Below, one piece after another: positions 38,001 to 49,400 of a stretch of DNA of 64,000 bases. This DNA is from Panagrolaimus kolymaensis. Its lineage: Eukaryota > Nematoda > Chromadorea > Rhabditida > Panagrolaimidae. Every line of letters starts with the position of its first letter. Position 1 is the stretch's first letter. Location: positions 6,324,001-6,388,000 of the forward strand of contig JAJQJQ010000006.1 in NCBI GenBank assembly GCA_028622995.1, in the 5' to 3' direction. Below the pieces are notes generated by a model. That model did no database searches and had not been told where the DNA came from. It was given only the letters and a program-made list of their open reading frames with translations. The translations under genes and the position numbers were made by a program.

Positions 38001-38642
38001 TTAATGCATTAGTAAGCAGCTTTTACAATGCCTTTTAAAATATACAAACCATTATCTCCTTAATTTCAGGATTCGGACGGTTGGTCGCCACTTCATTGTG
38101 CAGCATCATGTAATAATCTTCCAATGTTAAAATTATTAATTGAAAATGGCGCATCCATTTATGCTACAACTTTGAGTGATTCAGAAATGCCAATAAAAAA
38201 ATGCGAGGAAAAAGAAACGGGCTTTGAATCATGCACAAAATATTTGAATATGTGTGACGCATGGGCTGGAATAATAAACGATCGAAAAGTTTATCCATTT
38301 TATAATTATGAAGCTGAAAATGATGATGAGCTTTCATTTAATGAAAGCGAAATCTTAATTGTGATATCTCGAGATAATAATGGCGAAGATAAACTTTGGT
38401 GGCTTTGTGAATCAACTCAAACAAAGAAACGCGGCCTTGTTCCAGCAAATTTCATGGGCATTTATCCAACTCTTAAACATGCTCAACGAGTTGGGTTTAA
38501 ACGATTTGATATTCCATTAACTTTACCACCAACAACCGATTCATTAAATAATAATTCAAGGCATAATAATAAAAATGATGATAGCAGAATAATAGAAAAT
38601 TCAACATTTGAAAAAAGTTTTGAAATTAGCGCAAATGCTTAG
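26085..38642 (+). CDS. ape-1: ASPP family protein (apoptosis-stimulating of p53), APE-1-like
   Basis: ASPP proteins bind p53-family factors and protein phosphatase 1; the Caenorhabditis member is APE-1. Exons are 26085-26306, 33513-33877, 35347-35677, 36248-37768, 37892-38011 and 38070-38642, giving 1043 residues. The N-terminus is low-complexity (Ser, Gln, Pro). A coiled coil lies at about 200-305 ([34 protein letters not shown]). A proline run PPPPPK and acidic stretches follow. NKRIVFDP contains an RVxF-type PP1 docking motif. The C-terminus has ankyrin repeats ([34 protein letters not shown]) and an SH3 domain ([30 protein letters not shown]). The first intron is 7.2 kb and holds an alternative first exon at 29900-29998. 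An acceptor ends 3 bases before the first ATG. Confidence 0.93.
26307..33512 (+). other. 7.2 kb first intron of the ASPP gene
   Basis: AT-rich with long T tracts. The only coding sequence I can support is the alternative first exon at 29900. Most other introns in the window are about 50 bp, so this one probably carries enhancers and an internal promoter. Confidence 0.6.
29900..29998 (+). CDS. ape-1: Alternative first coding exon of the ASPP gene
   Basis: ATG followed by 33 codons ([20 protein letters not shown]...) and a strong donor GTAAGT. It ends in phase 0, the same phase as the first exon at 26085-26306, so either can splice to the acceptor at 33511-33512. The proline-rich PPKKPPRQF could be an SH3 ligand. 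The exon has its own ATG and no clear pyrimidine-rich acceptor upstream, which suggests a second promoter. Use as an internal cassette exon with an acceptor at TTTTTAAAG is possible. Confidence 0.6.
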
Positions 38643-39158: not shown

Positions 39159-39474
39159 ATGACTCGAATTGAAATTAAAATGGAAGCTGTAAGTATGAAT
39201 GCCGAAGAAGCTCAAGCCATCAAAGATCGAATAAATCGTTATCGTCGTCGACAATCTGAAGCTGCAATAGCTATGGCATCATCACATCAAAGAAATTTGA
39301 AGAATATTGCTGATCATTCAACTAACCATTCACATTATCATGGCAATTTGGTTCCAGTGGATGAGCTTCCACCTTCATCATTGATGCCTCAAACAGTTTG
39401 TTACAAGGGTTCTCAAAAGCCAACATCGCAAAGAAAAGAAACAAAATCACCTGAAAAGAAATCATCGATGATGC
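39159..39474 (+). CDS. Tail-anchored protein gene, 5' part (interrupted by transposon)
   Basis: The 5' coding part of a gene whose reading frame is cut by the Mutator-like element. It encodes 105 residues before the insertion. A basic helix (AQAIKDRINRYRRRQSE) is followed by a Lys/Ser-rich stretch (KETKSPEKKSSMM). Downstream of the insertion point the frame runs about 86 bases into the left terminal repeat and stops at 39560, adding a repeat-encoded tail (KETPNMETAMETPN). If the 10-bp repeat at 39465-39474 is joined to 45050, the frame continues unbroken into the 3' part, for a 413-residue original product. No family is recognised. Confidence 0.7.
39465..39474. repeat. Target-site duplication, left copy
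   Basis: TCGATGATGC, repeated at 45040-45049 on the other side of the element. Mutator-like elements make 9-11 bp duplications. Confidence 0.7.
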
Positions 39475-39893
39475 GGGACGAGTGCGATTCTCCGAATAAG
39501 GAAACTCCGAATATGGAAACCGCAATGGAAACTCCGAATGCGGAAACTTTGCTATTTTGAGGATTTATAAGTATGAAACTTTCAGAATAGGGTAATTTAG
39601 AGTCGATTTAACGATTTTTAATATTTCCAAACCCTTATGCATACAATATTAAGGATTGGCTGATGCCCTCAGGGGAAAATTATTTTTTTTATCTTCAAAT
39701 TTTTGCATTTGACTTAGAATTTATTGGAGATTAATTAAAAAGGCTATTAAATAACTTTTGACATTTTTTAAAACTATGAATATGCAAATTTTTCCACATT
39801 GACCTATTTTTTTACTGCTACCATTATTAGTTTATCGCCTGTTGATAATGGGCTTGATGCTTTGCTTAATTTCTTTTACAACTTAATATTATT
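39475..39893. repeat. Left terminal inverted repeat of the MULE
   Basis: About 419 bp. The outer part contains short direct repeats of CCGAATA-GGAAAC (39490-39545). The block around GGATTGGCTGATGCCCTCAGG is found inverted near 44843. The inner edge (TTAATTTCTTTTACAACTT) matches the complement of 44475-44500. Confidence 0.85.
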
Positions 39894-39955
39894 TTAATTT
39901 TTTTATTTTTCTAGCAATATATAAATAACAAACAAAACAAAAAAGAAATAACATA

Positions 39956-42900
39956 TTATTGTTCATTTGTCTTCAAAACGGGTTGATAATGATTATTTTT
40001 GAAATATAAACAAATATCTGGATAACCAGGTTTGTGTTCATAATTCTTTTTCTCTTCGGGGCTGTAAACATTCCATCTGTGAGTGTCTGCATCGATATAT
40101 TTTGTATAACAAAATACATTAACCAAGAACAATTGAGCAAATGCTTTTATATCTTCAGCACCCATCCATAATTCTTCACCCACGGCTTTACCATCTTTAT
40201 TTTCCTTTTCCATTTGTTCTATCAAATCTAATTGTCTTTTTGCATCGCCTTTTTTACCTTCTTTGAAATTACGCCATTCAGTAATTCTTTTTCTCAACAT
40301 CCAATGGTATTTATCTTTTCCAAAAAGTATATATGAGAATGCTCTGTATCCACAATTTCCATCGCCAAGAACGTTGGTAACAGTCAAGGGCAAAGTAAGA
40401 CTTTCAAAATTTTTCATATTTCTTAAAGGTGAATTTTTTGTTTTTGTAATAGGAATTCTTAAATAATCACAAGTATCAGCAAAGAATTTTTCTGATGGAG
40501 GTCTAAAGCCGGCCAATGCACTATGATTTCGTAATGATTCTCTTTGAATTATAATTTTTTGAGGGCTATTTGAGGGCTTCAAACATTTTGATGATTTAAA
40601 ATTGCTTTCTTCCATTGGAGCTTTTCTTTTAAAGGAACTGCTGAAAGAAGACTGGGGTGATCGAGAACGAGAGAATGACGTGATTTTTTCTTCTTTTTGG
40701 CTTGGCACATAACCATCTCTGTAAGCTGGAGGTGTGTGATAATCGCCATAATCATAATCAAAGCTTTTGGCATTAACGAAAGGTTTTTCGATATCATCTT
40801 CATCATTTATGAATTCTCCATCCGTATCATATCCATCCACATTTTTGACCAAGGTTTCTGATAATTTGGAGGGTTCATCGATAAAATCAGAATCATCATC
40901 CGCATCATTATCTGAGGCAAAAAAGTTAAGGTAATTGTCAATTTCTTCTTCATTATCGCTTTCTTCAGCATCGCTTTCTTCAGAATCGCCATCATCATTA
41001 TCATCCCCCATTTCAGTTGCATTCAAATCTATTCCACATTTTTTAAGAGAAGATTTCACTTTTTTAGCCTTTTGCAACAAATAGCTAACTCGAATGACAT
41101 GCTCCAAAGCTTTTTCTGCAATTTCTTCATCTGATAATTCATCTTCCATTTCAATAACTTCTGTACGATATCGGTTTTCAAAGGTTTCTAAGTCACCATC
41201 CAAATCGAGGTATTTCACTTGCACATGCTTTGTGTGTCGTTTGTATTTAAGTTGTTTCACTCGATTGCTAGCATCCAAAAAAAGGCGTTTTAAAGTTGTC
41301 AAAAATGTGGATAATGCGGGATGAATTCGAATATATTCAGATCTCTTTAAAAATGCATTGTATGATTCTACAGGGTTTGTATTTCGGAAATATCGCATGC
41401 CATAAAATGATATTTTGAAATTTTCATTCAACCATGTGCTTCGCATATAATCAATCATTTGCTAAAAATAAATTGTAAATTTATCGAATTGACAAATTAA
41501 AATTAATCTTACTTTCATTTCCTTAATAGGCCAGTCTTCTTTTTTAACATTTCTTGGTCTTCCTGGAGGTGTTGCAAGTTTCATATCAAATACGATAATT
41601 GCATGATCATGGGGAAGCAATAGCAAAGCCATTAAATTTCTAATCCATTGGCGAACAGTATCATGGGTTTGGTAAAGTTGCATAAGATGCAAAGTATTTG
41701 CTTTTCGGATAATAGCTTGGCTACTATGGAACAAGCAACCACGAACAATATTTCCAAAATGTTTTTCAATAGCGGACCAAGCAGCCTTTTCGAAATCTAC
41801 ATGCCATCTCTCAGCCGATAATCTCAATCCACATTGGTCCAAAGCTTTCTTCAACCATCCGAAAATATTTAAATAATTTTTCTTTTCCTTGTTTTTCATT
41901 ATCGCCATTGCTACACAAACCCATTCTCGTTCAGTGGGTTTATTGTGATCAGGGATGACAAGAGCAACAATACACAATACTTGTTTCCAATCTTTGGGTG
42001 CACATTGAAAAGTTGAATCACTCATGACAATTGTAGCTTCGGAAAGGGTTCTTAATAATCGAGGAGTACTGACAAGCATTGCATTATCATTTTCATTAAT
42101 TACCCAGCAACGTTTTCCTAATTGACGTTCAAATCCAATCATTTTAGTCTGAGCAATTTCCATTTCTTTTTTATTCTTATTAGACGCACGATAAAGACCA
42201 TATCGTTGCTGAGACAAAGGGTCGTAAAAAAGTATTGCATCTCCCTGAGATTCTGCTTTTTTCTTTCCCTACAATTGCGGAATAAATATAATGCAAAATT
42301 AAAATTAAAATAAACTAACTTCTTCAAAGGCTTGTTGAATATTTACATGATCATTTTTTTCGAGGTTTTCATGCACTTCTCTAATAATTTGGGTCGCAGC
42401 AATTTGGTGAGGATTATGGGCATCACAAAGTTCATGATGTTGTTCTTTGTAGCGCAACTCTTTTGTTACCATATTTAAAATTGCAGTGGCGATAATTTTT
42501 TGATATTTGGGATGAGTTTCTTTAAGTGTTTTGCATTTTTCACATCGAAAATATAAAGTTTGTTCTGTTTTTTGATTGAGAACAAACATACGGCATACAG
42601 GTTTTTTGATAACAATAATATGTTTATTGAGCTTTTCTGACATAAGTAATTCATAATCATTCCTTAAAAAATTGAAATTTAAATATGAAATTCTAATAAC
42701 TATTAACTTACGTCCTGCTATAAGACTGTTGGGGTCGAGTTGAACGGCTTTTTAGATATTTGCAAACAGTGCCTTTTAATACAGCTTTTCTATTCAAAAT
42801 TTGGCGAATTTTGATTCCAAGAGCTTCTTGCGTTTCTATTTCATTATTGCTTTTATCTTCAAATACATAAATAGCATCTTGAATTTCAATATCATCCCAA

Positions 42901-43100
42901 GGAATACGTTGGGAAGGGATGTCTTCTACGGGTTCTGATTTAATTGCATTTGCCAAAGAAGCAGCAGCATTTGGATCATTAGCGAGCTTCTTGATATCAG
43001 CGGGAGCCCAACCAGATGCAAGTAAATTTTTGATAAGTTGGTCACCGTCCAAAGACACTTCATTGGTAACGCTAACAATAACACGTTTTTGAGAAGCCAT
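39956..43100 (-). CDS. MULE transposase with C-terminal OTU protease domain
   Basis: Four exons (43100-42712, 42662-42320, 42268-41513, 41461-39956) give 997 residues without a stop. Residues about 135-245 have FLYWCH-like Cys/His spacing (CEKC...H..LCDAH), a likely DNA-binding zinc finger. The MULE DDE core shows Asp ~328 (MSDSTFQC), Asp ~402 (WHVDFEKAAW), the C/H motif GCLFHSSQ at ~422, and Glu ~528 in TNPVESYNAF. A long acidic linker (~600-740) follows. The last ~145 residues are an OTU cysteine protease with GDGNCGYRAFSY (Asp ~863, Cys ~866) and NNHYQP (His ~987). The enzyme should bind the terminal repeats and cut and paste the element. The OTU domain may remove ubiquitin-like tags, but its role in transposition is unknown. 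Confidence 0.92.
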
Positions 43101-43627
43101 TGTACTATAAAATTTGTAATGGTAAAATCATAAATGGAAATCATAAATTTGATAATGACGGAAAATTATAAACCGATGAATAAAAATTGAAATAAATTTA
43201 TTCTAATTCTAATCAACTATGAAATAATAATTTGGAAATAAATATCAAAAAAATAATAATTCGCGTATTTTAAAATATTTTCAAGAGAAATGAAGAAAAG
43301 CAACTGATCGCTGGAAGTATTGAATGAATGAAGTTTTTGAATGATTCAGAAGTTGGCGGTTAAAAAAATGCTTGCTTCATTAACATATGTCAAGTGGTAC
43401 TTAAGTGTGATTGAGATATCCTCAAAGGTGCTTCAAAGCATTCTCTTTGATTTGTTTCTCTTTGAAATATGTTTGAGAGATGAATTAGGCGCCAAAGCCT
43501 TTTTTTAGTTATTCATTTGCAGAAAGTTTTCCAACATCGGTATTCAATGTGTTTGACGGCGGCGTGCAAACAATTTCATCAAATTGATTGTCAAATATTT
43601 ATTTTTTGTTTTTTTAGATTTGAAGAT
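43101..43627. promoter_or_regulatory. Divergent spacer between transposase and CHMP4 genes
   Basis: About 530 bp that must hold promoters for both genes of the element. TTTTTTTAG at 43610-43618 is a splice acceptor 9 bases before the CHMP4 ATG, so the captured copy seems to have kept a trans-splice or leader-intron site. Confidence 0.45.
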
Positions 43628-44275
43628 ATGGCTCAACTTATTAAAATGTTCTTGAAGAAAGTGAAGAAGATGCTCGAAAAATTAATAAAAAAAGAATGTG
43701 CGGCAACACCGCAAGAATCCATCTCAAAGCTACGTGAAACTGAAAAAATGTTAATGAAAAAGCAAGACTTCCTCGAAAAGAAGATTCAGCAGGTAAGCTT
43801 ATTTTTGTTTTTTTTCTTTCTTTTTAATTACATGAAACTTTTATAGGAAACTCAAACAGCTCGTAAAAATGCTTCGGCAAATAAGCGTATCGCTTTACAA
43901 GCATTGAAAAGAAAGAAGCATCATGAAAAGCAACAACTACATATTGACGGAGTATTACAAAGAATTGAATATCAAAGAAAAAGTTTAGAAAGAAATTTAT
44001 CAATTTTTATCTCTGAACAACAAGATGTCGCAAATGAAATCGCTGGAGCTATCGCAAATCCCATTGGTTTTGGTAATGATATCGATGAAAGTGTATTTTT
44101 AGCTGAATTAGAAGAATTTGAAGAAGTAAGTTGCTTATTTTTTGTTTGTATGACTATTATTATATTCTTTGCTAACTTTTAGGAAACTATCAATGAAAAA
44201 CTTATTACTGTTGGTCAAAAGAACAAGAAAGAAGAAGATGATATGGCTGAATTGGAACAATGGGCAACATCGTAA
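43628..44275 (+). CDS. SNF7/CHMP4 (VPS32) ESCRT-III protein, internally shortened, inside the transposon
   Basis: ESCRT-III SNF7 subunits polymerise on membranes to drive scission in endosome sorting, cytokinesis and nuclear-envelope sealing. Three exons (43628-43792, 43847-44125, 44183-44275) give 178 residues against the usual ~210-225. Helix 1 is well kept (SISKLRETEKMLMKKQDFLE, NKRIALQALKRKKHHEKQQL). The acidic C-terminal part is recognisable (SEQQDVANEIAGAIANPIGF, LAELEEFEEE). About 40 residues between them (helix 2-3 region after IEYQRKSLE) are missing. The N-terminus is a basic amphipathic stretch (LIKMFLKKVKKMLEKLIKK) rather than the usual short glycine-started one. The gene lies between the inverted repeats, so it was captured by the element. 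Confidence 0.88.
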
Positions 44276-44438
44276 CTTCAATCAAGGATTATGTAAACTT
44301 ATTTCGTCATTCGATTCATCTTCCCTATGGGTCAATGGTCTCTTGGTCCCTTCTTTTGCTTGTATTATTTAATTATGTACACATTTTTTACTTTATTGTT
44401 TTGTTTTTTTGTTTGTTTGTTACTTTTGTTTTTGATTG

Positions 44439-44444
44439 AATAAA
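44439..44444 (+). terminator. Poly(A) signal of the captured CHMP4 gene
   Basis: AATAAA 164 bp after the stop codon, immediately before the inner edge of the right terminal repeat. Confidence 0.5.
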
Positions 44445-44470
44445 AATATTATTATTATCAAAAAAAGATT

Positions 44471-45039
44471 ATATAATATAAAGTTGTAAAAGAAATTAAT
44501 GAAAGCATCAAGCCCATGAGCAACAGGCGATTCGCAAAATTATTGATAATTGCAGCAGTTAAAAATATTTGAAAAATATGGATCAATTTGCATATTCATG
44601 GTTAAAAAAGGTTTTAAAAGTTATTTAATAGCCTTTTTAATTAATCTCCAATAAATACTAAGTAAAATGCAAAAATTTGAAGAAAAAGAAGTTTTTCCCC
44701 ACAGAGCATCAACAAAATCCTTAATAGTGAATAACATAAGGGTTTGGAAATATTAAAAATCGGTAAATCAACTTTAAATTACCATATCCTGATAATTTCA
44801 TAACTATAAACCTTCAAAATGGTAAAGTTTTCATATTCATCACCTGAGGGCATCAGCCAATCCTTAATATTGTATGCATAAGGGTTTGGAAATATTAAAA
44901 ATCGTTAAATCGACTCTAAATTACCTTATTCTGTAAGTTTCATACTTATAAATCCTCAAAATAGCAAAGTTTCCGTATTCGGAGTTTCCATTGCGGTTTC
45001 CATATTCGGAGTTTCCTTATTCGGAGAAATTCTACACTC
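44471..45039. repeat. Right terminal inverted repeat of the MULE, with internal duplication
   Basis: The inverted counterpart of 39475-39893, about 150 bp longer. The extra length is a diverged tandem duplication of a ~144-bp unit (44699-44842 and 44843-44985). Each copy contains CATAAGGGTTTGGAAATATT. Only the outer copy pairs closely with the left arm. Confidence 0.82.
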
Positions 45040-45049
45040 TCGATGATGC
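45040..45049. repeat. Target-site duplication, right copy
   Basis: TCGATGATGC, identical to 39465-39474. Confidence 0.7.
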
Positions 45050-46177
45050 CGATATCAAAGAATGGAGTAACATCTCAACCAAAACAGCTCATGTTTTCAT
45101 CTGAACTCCATGAAAAGAAGCAACAAGCATATCCTCTTCCATCTTATCACGAATGGAAACAAAATCAACACAAAAATTTACCAAAAGCATGGAAGCAAAC
45201 TGATACATTGGATGAAAAAAGTTTAGATGTTGACGAAGATGATGATGATGATGAAGAAACAAAAATTGAATTGCCTCAAAATTTAAAAGAACGTGAAGTT
45301 TTTGTTTATGCTGCACAAAAGAAAGTTGTAAAAGAAGGTTCAAATGAAGCATCTCAAAGGGGTAATTTAATTCCTGTTGATCCATCCGTAAGTTTTGAAA
45401 GCTGGCCTCTTTGTTCAACTGTTTCAAGTTCTTCAAGTTTCACTACTACTATGGTAATAAGTTTTTTTGTTATGTTAATGGAATTTATTATGCCATCATT
45501 TTTTAGCCTACTCCAACAGATGTCAGTTCAAACACAAGTTTTACAAGCTTATCATCGTCATCCTCAAGTCCAAATATTTCTCCTCCATCTTTGATTGTTC
45601 CTACTTCTGTTGTGGTTAAAGAAAGTGGAGATGTGTATGTTACTGGTATGATTCTAAACTTAATAATAAGCTATTCACAATAAAACTTTCAGATAAACCA
45701 CCTTCAAAATTGGAATCTCTTGTTTTGGCTTCAGCGTTTTCTCCTGTTCCTATGCCATTAAAAAGAAATGATGCAACAAATGTCCGAAAATCTCAAAGCG
45801 ATGAAGCCATTAATCGAAAGGTAATTGACTTGTTTTTTTGGGGTGTTGGTGCTTGTCATACTTTTGATAGCATATCATCATTTTGTTTAGTGGATGCTGT
45901 TTACTTCATCTTAACTTTTTAGGCAATCGAACCACAACCTCTTCCACCACCACCGCCAAAGCCTCTCATTCTAAAATCTCCAAAGAAATCAATCTCATCA
46001 TCGTCATTATTTCCATCAGATCGCAACATTGATATTTGTAAACAATATGAAATGGTCAAAGCTGTAAGATATCCCAATACATGGTTGGATGAAATGGAAG
46101 CAATTGCAATTATTGTTTTTCTTTGTGCTGTTATTGGCTTACTTTTTTACCGAATGTTTATCATCAATATTATTTAA
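45050..46177 (+). CDS. Tail-anchored protein gene, 3' part (interrupted by transposon)
   Basis: The 3' coding part of the interrupted gene: exons 45050-45453, 45507-45645, 45693-45820 and 45923-46177. The region is hydrophilic, with an acidic run (DEDDDDDEETK), Ser-rich stretches and a proline run (PLPPPPPKPL). It ends in one hydrophobic segment (AIAIIVFLCAVIGLLFYRMF) and IINII, as in C-terminally tail-anchored membrane proteins. The open frame continues upstream through the duplicated site to ATG codons at 45043 and 45046, so a truncated protein could still be made from this half. No family is recognised. The next gene starts 250 bp downstream. Confidence 0.7.
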
Positions 46178-46426: not shown

Positions 46427-49400
46427 ATGTTGACCCTTCGGGTTTTTTACTTTTTACTTTATGGCCTTGCTCATACTGTATCTGAGTCAACAACCATCAC
46501 AACAGAATCATTTGATCCTACTACTTCATATTTCACCCATGAAATTTCTCCACCATCGACCACATCAACCTCAATAGGAAGGAAGGTTGTTCTTGCGAGT
46601 TTTTATACCATTCATCAAGCTGGAATAATTCCATGTGATACAATAATTCCAGAAAATATTATTTTATCTATTATTCATCAACATTCAATTTTAACTGCCA
46701 ATGAAAAGATTTTATCGAAGCTTGGAGTAAAATTGGTATCAGATTTTGCGGATACTTGTGATGATGCTTCTGTTACCCTTCAAAAAGCCGTTGGAATTAT
46801 TGGACAATCTCAAGATTTTTGTGAACGAAAATCTGATCAATCTCATAATAAACCTGGTGGTGATAGCAGTGGAAAAAACAGAAATAATGAAATTTCACAA
46901 ACATTGATTGCAGCCACTGGAGTATTTCGTGGAGAAATTGGTGATAGCATAAATTATCTTCTTCGAGCTTTTTGTTTGCCCGTTATTGCTTCTGTTTCAT
47001 CTTCAGCAGAAATGGATAATCCCATAACTTATCCATACTTTCTTCGAACTGGAGCATCCGATGTTTATAAAGCTCAAGTAATTCTTGATATTTTACAATC
47101 ACAACAATGGTATCATATTTTGGTTATTTCTGATTCATCTTCCACGGGTGTAGCATTAACAAATCAATTTAAAACTCTCATAGAATATTGTTATGCAAAT
47201 GATGATATTCATTTATTTCGACCACCATGTGTGGAAAATTATTTTCAACTTTCATTTTTTGATGATTCTAATGAAGGAGAAGTAAGTCATTGTTATTAAA
47301 CTGCTGAAGTTGGAATTTTAAAACCTTGTAAACCTAAAAGTTGTTTTGTCCGTTTAAGATTTTATTGACAAAGTTAAGACTGTGTTTAGCCTCTTCCCAT
47401 AATTTCATTATTCTTTTAAATCAATCAATACAAACAGTTGACTTTTTTGGAAAAATTACTGATAAGAATTTTTTCACTGTGCTACTTGAAAAAAAAAAGT
47501 TTTAAGCAAAAAAGACTAATCCCTTGCAACTGAAAGAAAGGTTTCTTTCAGAATTAAAAAAGTATCGTAATGATTTAAAAATAATAAATTCGTTTTTCCT
47601 ATAATTAGAATTGAAACTTTAGCTTGAAACCGAACGAGAATATCTTAAAAAAGGTCTCAATAATAGCGCTACCAGAGTGATTGTAATGTTAATGGAAGAT
47701 CGAGCAATCGATAAAACTTTATTATTTCTTGATACATTGGATTCAAATCCAGGTCGATGGCAATTTATTTTATCAACTAAAGATATTCAAAGCAACACAT
47801 TATTAGAATATTCATTTGCTGTGGAAGAAAATATTGAAGCATATTTGGAATTTAATGAAGTCATTAAAAGTGTTACTTTAAAAAATACTGAAGTAAGCTG
47901 CTTTTAGTTAATTTTCGATGCAGCAACAAGAAAGAATTTTGTTTTAGAATCCATGGGTTCAAGAGCTAATAGAAAATGAAAATCTTTGTTGTTGGAATAA
48001 TGTTACTTCATGCCCTTACAGTATCCAATGTGACGGAAGTGAAAAGATAATAAATGTTCCAGAAAAAGCTAGTCATGAAGCCATACATGTTTATAATGCA
48101 ATTATGCTTTTGGCAACTGCAATTAAAAACATCCATGATGAATATTGTAAAAATGAATCAGGAATTTGTGAAAACTTAATAAATGAAGCCACAGGTCGAA
48201 TGCTATTAAATTATTTGTTAAATGCCAGCTTTGCGGATGAATATCATCAAAAATTTGAGTTATTTAATCGATCAGCCACGCCTGTTTATAATGTGTTTCA
48301 AATGCAAGAAGTAAGGTTAAACTCCTTTTTTAATTTCCATAATCATTCATTTTTAGGGAAACTGGAAATCTGTTTTAACCCAATATAATCCTTACATTGG
48401 CCCTGTTCCATCAATATTTAATTTTCCAATCAAAGAAATCCCAGGTTATGATGATATTTTACAAGAAAGTGTTTATTGTCAACCTAATTGTGATAAAACT
48501 ATTATCGATATGCGTGGAAGATGTTGTTGGAATTGTCGATCATGTAATTATGGTGAATTTATAAATAATACGCTTATGATGTGTCAAAATTGTTCGATTG
48601 AAGAAATGCCAAATGAAAATCTCACGGGTTGCATTTTGGAACCTAAACCTCCATTGTTCTATGAACCTACAGCAGAAATGTGGGTTCTCATTGGAGTTTC
48701 GATAATTGGAGTCTTGATTTCAACGATTTTAACTACATATATTTATCTTTTTCGCAAAACTCCCATGGTTATGGCTTCCACTCCAGATTTATGTTATCTT
48801 CAATCATTTGCTCAATCATTGCTTTTTATTATTGCTGGTATGATGCTTCCATCACCAAATATGATAGTTTGTGGAACAGTATGGACCATTTCTTCTGTGT
48901 TATTAGTGACGACGCATGCAATATTTCTTATAAAAGCTATACGACTTTCAAGGCCAAGATTTTATACTAAATTAATTGCATACGCAAACACTCCAGTCAA
49001 ATGTTCGTTAATTATGTTATTTGTATTCTTCGCAAGCCAGCTACTAATATGTGTTATTTGGATACTTCTAAGGCCACCAAAACCTTTAAGAAAATTTCAT
49101 GAAGATATTGTTCATTGCAGGTTTGTTATTGAATAACAAAATTTCATCCTTTACCAAAAAAAACTACGATAGCTATTAATGTCAAAGTTAAATTACCAAC
49201 ATATTTATTCCATCACTTTGAAGTTCACGCCCCAATTTAACAAGGTTATTTCCGTGTGATCTAAGGGGAATAAACTTTAAAAAATGTCATAGTTATTCAG
49301 GCAATGTCAAACAAAAGTCTCCGAAACACCAGTCAATGTTAAAACAAAAAAATTAACTTTGATTTTCTTATTTCAAAGATCGCAAAAGTATTATAATTAA

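Follow-up and report, generated by a model that had tools for sequence, protein, structure and literature searches.

Does a DNA transposon in a nematode carry an ESCRT-III gene of its host as part of the unit that it moves, and if so, what is that gene to the transposon? The question is raised by a 64,000-nucleotide stretch (the window) of contig JAJQJQ010000006.1 in the genome of Panagrolaimus kolymaensis, a triploid parthenogen from Siberian permafrost. The window holds a Mutator-like element (MULE) of 5567 bp at 39475..45041 (no strand assigned), in which a transposase gene and a CHMP4-like gene are divergently arranged. A sequence-only reading of the window had described an apparently autonomous MULE with a transposase gene and a spliced CHMP4 gene, and both frames are indeed open, over 997 and 178 amino acids, respectively. 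The exon models of both genes rest on splice signals and open reading frames rather than on transcripts. The composite element moved as a unit, and recently.

The evidence for movement comes from the other copies in the searched assembly (265,843,910 bases in 807 contigs; contigs and loci are given below by our C and L handles). The left terminal inverted repeat (TIR) of the element is found with 100% identity at 11 loci genome-wide. An 871-bp CHMP4 query is present at these loci entire in 9, over positions 46-871 in 1 (C51:353k, where most of the transposase and the first start codon are gone), and with only its final 113 bp in 1 (C5:1836k). Since the flanks of C229 agree with those of C35, the nine full-length copies represent eight sites, and the gene is at nine sites in all. 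When all nine full-length copies were compared end to end (1930 bp from the left end, 2914 bp from the right end, plus the middle), the others differed from the window copy at 0 positions (C229, C35, and C5:6204k), 2 positions (C51:245k, C15, C9, and C4), or 3 positions (C51:1744k). Four positions are variable among them: the changes at 42483, 42806, and 42935 alter transposase residues, and 43725 falls in CHMP4 exon 1. Apparent differences at 39540, 39582, 39590, 39674, 44842, 44926, 44934, and 44976 were rejected as cross-matches between the left and right TIRs, which occur partly in the window's own row. The search suggested by the sequence-only reading, for the same TIRs and CHMP4 at different loci, thus comes out positive: nine full-length copies, distributed over eight sites that differ in their flanks. 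The opposite outcome that it had envisaged, with all other copies of the TIR family lacking CHMP4, fails for the identical-TIR family, in which 9 of 11 loci hold the whole query.

The ends of the element are identical across the full-length copies. Self-alignment gives a left TIR of about 430 bp at 39475..39904 (plus strand) and a right TIR of about 580 bp at 44461..45041 (minus strand), close to the inverted repeats of ~420 and ~570 bp reported before. The arms align in three blocks, 39488-39683 with 44833-45028 (96% identity), 39685-39813 with 44562-44690 (84%), and 39834-39904 with 44461-44531 (87%), and the right TIR is the longer one because it contains a 142-bp tandem duplication at 44716-44980. 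Flank comparison of the copies places the 8-bp target site duplication (TSD), GATGATGC, at 39467..39474 on the left and 45042..45049 on the right (both plus strand). We inspected 11 TSD rows, namely ten of the 11 left-TIR loci (all except C5:1836k, whose right flank was unread) and a short derivative in L012. TC is the right end of the element in 11/11 rows, and a perfect 8-bp TSD is seen in 10/11, or 9/10 distinct sites with C229 and C35 taken as one. The flanking direct repeat had earlier been given as 10 bp because the left flank at the window site also ends in TC by chance; the true TSD is 8 bp and the final TC belongs to the element. The element's start at 39475 therefore stands as first given, while its end moves from 45039 to 45041. 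Long TIRs and a TSD within ~8-11 bp are characters of MULEs, and both are present here. The derivative in L012 (C5:6674935-6678303, about 1490-2542) resembles a miniature inverted-repeat transposable element of 1 kb, with the element's ends and a perfect 8-bp TSD.

Three of the nine cargo-bearing sites were tested for empty sites by searching with joined flanks. The window site is uninterrupted on C3 and C11 at 96%, and the C9 insertion is missing from C2 and C17 (96-97%). For C51:245k, the joined flanks are uninterrupted on C4 and C43 (91%), with one more match each at 88% and 85%, and the C4 and C43 matches may be homoeologs or paralogs. The empty homoeologous sites for the window and C9 insertions fit insertion after the separation of the three genome copies; taken together with the near-identity of the copies, the absence of insertions from homoeologous sites points to very recent movement. 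At the window site, the insertion splits a host exon (39159..39474, plus strand), whose frame picks up again at 45050, and the joined frame is open. Host exons near the element, at 38124-38642 and 46427-47299, carry an SH3 and a receptor ligand-binding (ANF_receptor) domain.

These data also bear on whether the arrangement is an artefact of the assembly, or whether a host CHMP4 gene simply happens to be flanked by two inverted repeats. C229 and C35 share both insertion and flanks, and one of these two contigs is probably redundant. However, the many sites have different flanks and TSDs, the homoeologs are uninterrupted, and the nine full-length copies at eight sites contradict an artefact, which had been named at the outset as a case that could overturn the finding. 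We give such an explanation almost no weight.

The transposase gene lies on the minus strand in four exons, at 42712..43100 (exon 1, defined by splice signals and open frame), 42320..42662 (exon 2), 41513..42268 (exon 3), and 39956..41461 (exon 4), separated by three short introns, and encodes 997 amino acids. Exon 2 holds an RYYR-CCHC domain at about 42425-42643 that scores above the Pfam cut-off. The MULE domain match in exon 3 (about 41720-41959) is weak and under the Pfam cut-off of 27.6 bits: the exon-3 frame alone scores 22.5 bits (E value 1.6e-4), and the whole protein scores 19.1 bits. Exon 4 has an acidic stretch and, at the C terminus, an OTU-like (ovarian-tumour-type) cysteine protease match at about 39986-40366, also under the Pfam cut-off. 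The motifs SDSTF, HVDFE, GCLFHSSQ, and NPVES follow one another in this order, and GDGNC and NNHYQP stand close to the end. We take SDSTF, HVDFE, GCLFH, and NPVES to be the D-D-CxxH-E catalytic signature of MULEs, and GDGNC and NNHYQP presumably contain the OTU cysteine and histidine. Searched against PDB sequences, the exon-4 frame yielded weak matches only (OTUB2, E 0.26), and protein-database searches with the transposase at E 1e-3 and then at E 10 gave no scored relative. The spacer that separates the two divergent genes (43101..43550, no strand assigned) is transposon-derived, and it is predicted to be, probably, a promoter region shared by both.

The CHMP4-like gene is on the plus strand in three exons, at 43628..43792, 43847..44125, and 44183..44275, followed by a host-derived CHMP4 3' untranslated region (UTR) at 44276..44388. 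The best database match of its protein is CHMP4b of Panagrolaimus davidi, and its 178 amino acids compare with 220 in the host genes on C29, C63, and C67. The Pfam Snf7 profile scores 54.5 bits in the cargo protein (cut-off 27.3), with positions 1-75 of 171 as the best stretch, and 156.9 bits over positions 1-169 in the host protein. Relative to the host genes, the cargo is missing 93 bp of exon 2 (scar at about 43981-44008), 66 bp of exon 3 (scar at about 44213/44214), and the native start, and both deletions are in frame. For about the first 20-24 codons (43628-43699), no clear equivalent is seen in the host genes. A complete, functional CHMP4 unit is ruled out by these losses. The 'complete transcription unit' of the sequence-only reading does not hold, as the start codon is new and preceded by transposon sequence, and two stretches of coding sequence have been lost.

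What remains is a defined part of the protein. In PDB sequence searches, cargo residues 26-103 align to 2-79 of CHMP4B structure 4abm, which is 79 residues long. Cargo residues 109-159 align to part of chain B of 3um3, a CHMP4B fragment. The alpha1-alpha2 hairpin and the C-terminal MAELEQWATS are kept, the latter letter-identical to the hosts; we take it to be a putative motif that resembles the Bro1/ALIX-binding tail of CHMP4. The exon-2 deletion takes out 31 codons of what we take, partly from general knowledge of the fold, to be the alpha3/alpha4 region, leaving no full alpha1-alpha4 polymer core. The linker lost with the exon-3 deletion holds MPDAPKDTIP; the same place reads LPEAP in P. 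davidi and LPDIP in P. sp. JU765, in the manner of a MIM2 VPS4-binding motif. The new N terminus is cationic (net charge +6) and amphipathic, with a moment of 0.586; when its own residues were shuffled, 87 of 20000 permutations reached this value. In a genome search with a 580-bp query covering the spacer and gene start, this stretch was matched in element copies only. It weakly resembles the end of alpha1 (reached by 4/500 shuffles for DNA and 85/2000 for protein), a likeness that may reflect local duplication or chance.

The same 580-bp query showed how the element looks without the gene. It matched another 11 places at 84-87%, in no case beyond query position 514 (43614), and none of these places was among the CHMP4-query matches (all 30 first-look candidates scored). 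The block missing from the CHMP4-less relatives spans 43551..44451 (plus strand), with a gene-bearing core at about 43615-44407. In the relatives L019, L020, L021, and L023, position 43550 is directly joined to 44452; the outer flanks of L019, L020, and L021 differ after 43 common bases, so these are separate sites. L061, a longer reading of the L023 element, shows the junction again and has a transposase 72% identical over residues 127-824. A CHMP4 search in L061 found nothing beyond an 11-residue chance match (E 0.60). In this sister element, no match extends past transposase residue 824; the OTU-like match of the window element lies at the C terminus (39986-40366). In L013, L015, and L016, some 45 bp separate about 43476 from about 44468-44471. 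In L017 and L018, about 43614 is joined to about 44408 across a T-rich overlap; these two may either preserve the condition immediately preceding capture or owe their junction to a deletion that came afterwards. Since these more distant TIR relatives lack the coding part of CHMP4, the gene was acquired as captured cargo, in a block that by these junctions is about 0.8-0.9 kb long. L022 (C9:1136385-1139744, about 10-2021) holds an older-looking remnant of the CHMP4 3' UTR beside a TIR, 83% identical to the host over 117 columns and 81% to the element over 225 columns, with the coding part absent. Its interior contains a minisatellite-like stretch of TTATGTGTTGCTGCCTTACCTTC-type units.

The host origin of the cargo is plain from three candidate donor genes, on C29, C63, and C67, which match it at 90-97% per segment. 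The introns of the cargo agree with C29 at 97/109 positions and with C63 at 83/101, and its 3' UTR agrees with C29 at 110/112; between the two host genes, the values are 92/101 for the introns and 113/113 for the 3' UTR. As the cargo retains both introns and the 3' UTR, it was captured from DNA and not from spliced RNA. It appears to have left the host line roughly at the time of genome-copy separation, far before the recent burst, the order being uncertain on stretches this short. Diverged CHMP4-like paralogs also occur in the genome, at L055/L057 (C30), L056 (C8), and L059 and L054 (C2), with side-by-side pairs on C30 and C8. One could thus imagine that duplication and alteration took place while the gene still belonged to the host and that the transposon captured the altered copy afterwards, a route for which the existence of such paralogs speaks, among them one on C2 whose middle is shortened in another way. 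However, the two deletions of the cargo are found in 0/4 aligned host loci (C29, C63, C67, and C2; the other paralogs were not aligned singly), the new N-terminal stretch is confined to the element copies, and the cargo introns are closest to the intact C29 gene. We regard this order of events as improbable.

The explanation that we favor, and hold to be probable rather than certain, is that an autonomous MULE captured a host CHMP4 piece, which was trimmed and recently spread and whose product is mostly luggage. A genomic piece with introns and 3' UTR would have entered a T-rich spacer adjoining the right inverted repeat, by template switching at the DNA level. Template switching guided by short homology is described as a source of animal Pack-TIRs in the available text of one study (PMC8277862), and the T-rich junction fits such a route, short of proof. 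Two in-frame deletions would then have shortened the piece, which gained a new start, and the composite element would have spread in a recent burst by its own transposition, the transposase moving the whole element. The cargo would be transcribed from the transposon's own upstream region and trans-spliced at TTTTTTTAG just before the start codon, and its protein, although made, would mostly hitchhike on a successful transposase without being needed by the element.

Substitution counts over 146 aligned codons lend support to the luggage part of this explanation. Of the changes unique to the cargo, 11 are nonsynonymous and 7 synonymous. For C29 against C63, the corresponding counts are 3 and 10 within these codons (Fisher p 0.067 versus the cargo) and 6 and 13 over the whole coding sequence (Fisher p 0.10 versus the cargo). 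With a neutral expectation of 80% nonsynonymous changes, the cargo counts have a binomial p of 0.066. The pattern thus falls between constraint and neutrality and demonstrates neither neutrality nor strong constraint, and at least 5 of the cargo changes adjoin a deletion scar, where true homology of the codons is doubtful.

Several observations do not sit easily with capture followed by mere carriage. The C4 copy (C4:8401632-8407185) is the only full-length copy without matching duplications. When 18 random substitutions were simulated, the frame stayed free of stops in 0.32 of the trials; the chance that both deletions are multiples of three is about 1/9, and the product, about 0.04, is suggestive but post hoc. 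The frame and both intron boundaries are intact despite about 11% intron divergence from C29, and the deletions take out particular modules and spare others.

A cargo with a function is the main alternative. It would be a selfish ESCRT-III decoy that poisons CHMP4-dependent steps in the element's favor, which we consider possible but distinctly less likely than luggage. Such a decoy would retain membrane seating and Bro1/ALIX recruitment, while the helices of the polymer core and the hook for VPS4 are predicted to be gone, so that it would neither polymerise normally nor be removed by VPS4, a logic that we advance only tentatively. Nuclear-envelope closure, vesicle-linked small-RNA silencing, and endosomal sorting are conceivable targets, proposed with equal reserve. 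That vesicles and ESCRT have a link to small-RNA silencing is presumed here, and a literature search on this link found nothing usable. The match of residues 26-103 to 4abm, the kept MAELEQWATS, the deleted MPDAPKDTIP linker, and the amphipathic moment and charge of the N terminus all agree with a decoy. There are also precedents. Truncated CHMP3 retrocopies of monkeys and mice appear, in the available text of PMC7618577, to poison virus budding and spare cytokinesis, and Ulp1-carrying Kaonashi/Vandal elements are described in the accessible part of PMC13317346 as lowering the methylation of related elements, a useful MULE cargo. On the other side, the counts above (11N:7S; p 0.066, 0.067, and 0.10) do not demonstrate constraint, the first start codon is gone from the derivative C51:353k, and lysine-rich helices are easily encoded by an AT-rich new 5' end. 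That a mobile dominant-negative CHMP4 belongs to the transposon's gene set and disturbs nuclear-envelope or vesicle-linked transposon control in this asexual triploid worm seems to us more doubtful still.

Capture of host genes by MULEs is already known, mainly from plants and in transposase-free elements. The plant Pack-MULEs and Pack-TYPE elements resemble the present element in having host gene sequence within MULE TIRs and TSDs, often in multiple copies, but they are described as non-autonomous (PMC8903248, in the part available), whereas here the transposase gene is open. A strict Pack-MULE has a host gene between MULE TIRs, as found here, and is free of transposase, which this element is not; its open 997-amino-acid transposase places it as an autonomous-type MULE with cargo. 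Among animals, according to the available text of one survey (PMC8277862), no Pack-MULE was identified in its 100 reference genomes, and population data yielded a fly case that is non-autonomous. That case, Ssk-FB4 of Drosophila, whose copies its authors call Pack-MULEs, shares with the nematode element the animal host, long TIRs, a near-complete membrane-related host gene, multiple copies, and distinct TSDs; as far as the same text goes, FB4 is non-autonomous and took its gene with the 5' upstream region, while here a transposase is present and the native 5' end is missing. Kaonashi (KIU)/Vandal elements with a transduplicated Ulp1 likewise carry a captured host domain beside their own coding genes, but, according to the accessible part of PMC13317346, they are plant, non-TIR elements with an old and conserved protease domain. 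OTU-type MULEs, such as the MuDR-6_HM group of Cnidaria, have a transposase with an ovarian-tumour-type motif; the likeness is by description only, and a CHMP4 cargo is unmentioned in the available text (PMC6446971). RetroCHMP3 is a truncated ESCRT-III duplicate made via mobile-element machinery, but it is described in the part of PMC7618577 at hand as a CHMP3 retrocopy with a reported antiviral effect, not as DNA-transposon cargo. No MULE with an ESCRT-III gene was found among the literature matches listed, which cover the subscription literature in part. New here are the animal host, the open transposase in the same element, and the ESCRT-III gene. Candidate donors, CHMP4-less relatives, and near-identical insertions occur together, so capture, trimming, and spread can be read within one genome, and the element offers a specific candidate for an ESCRT-III modifier carried by a transposon.

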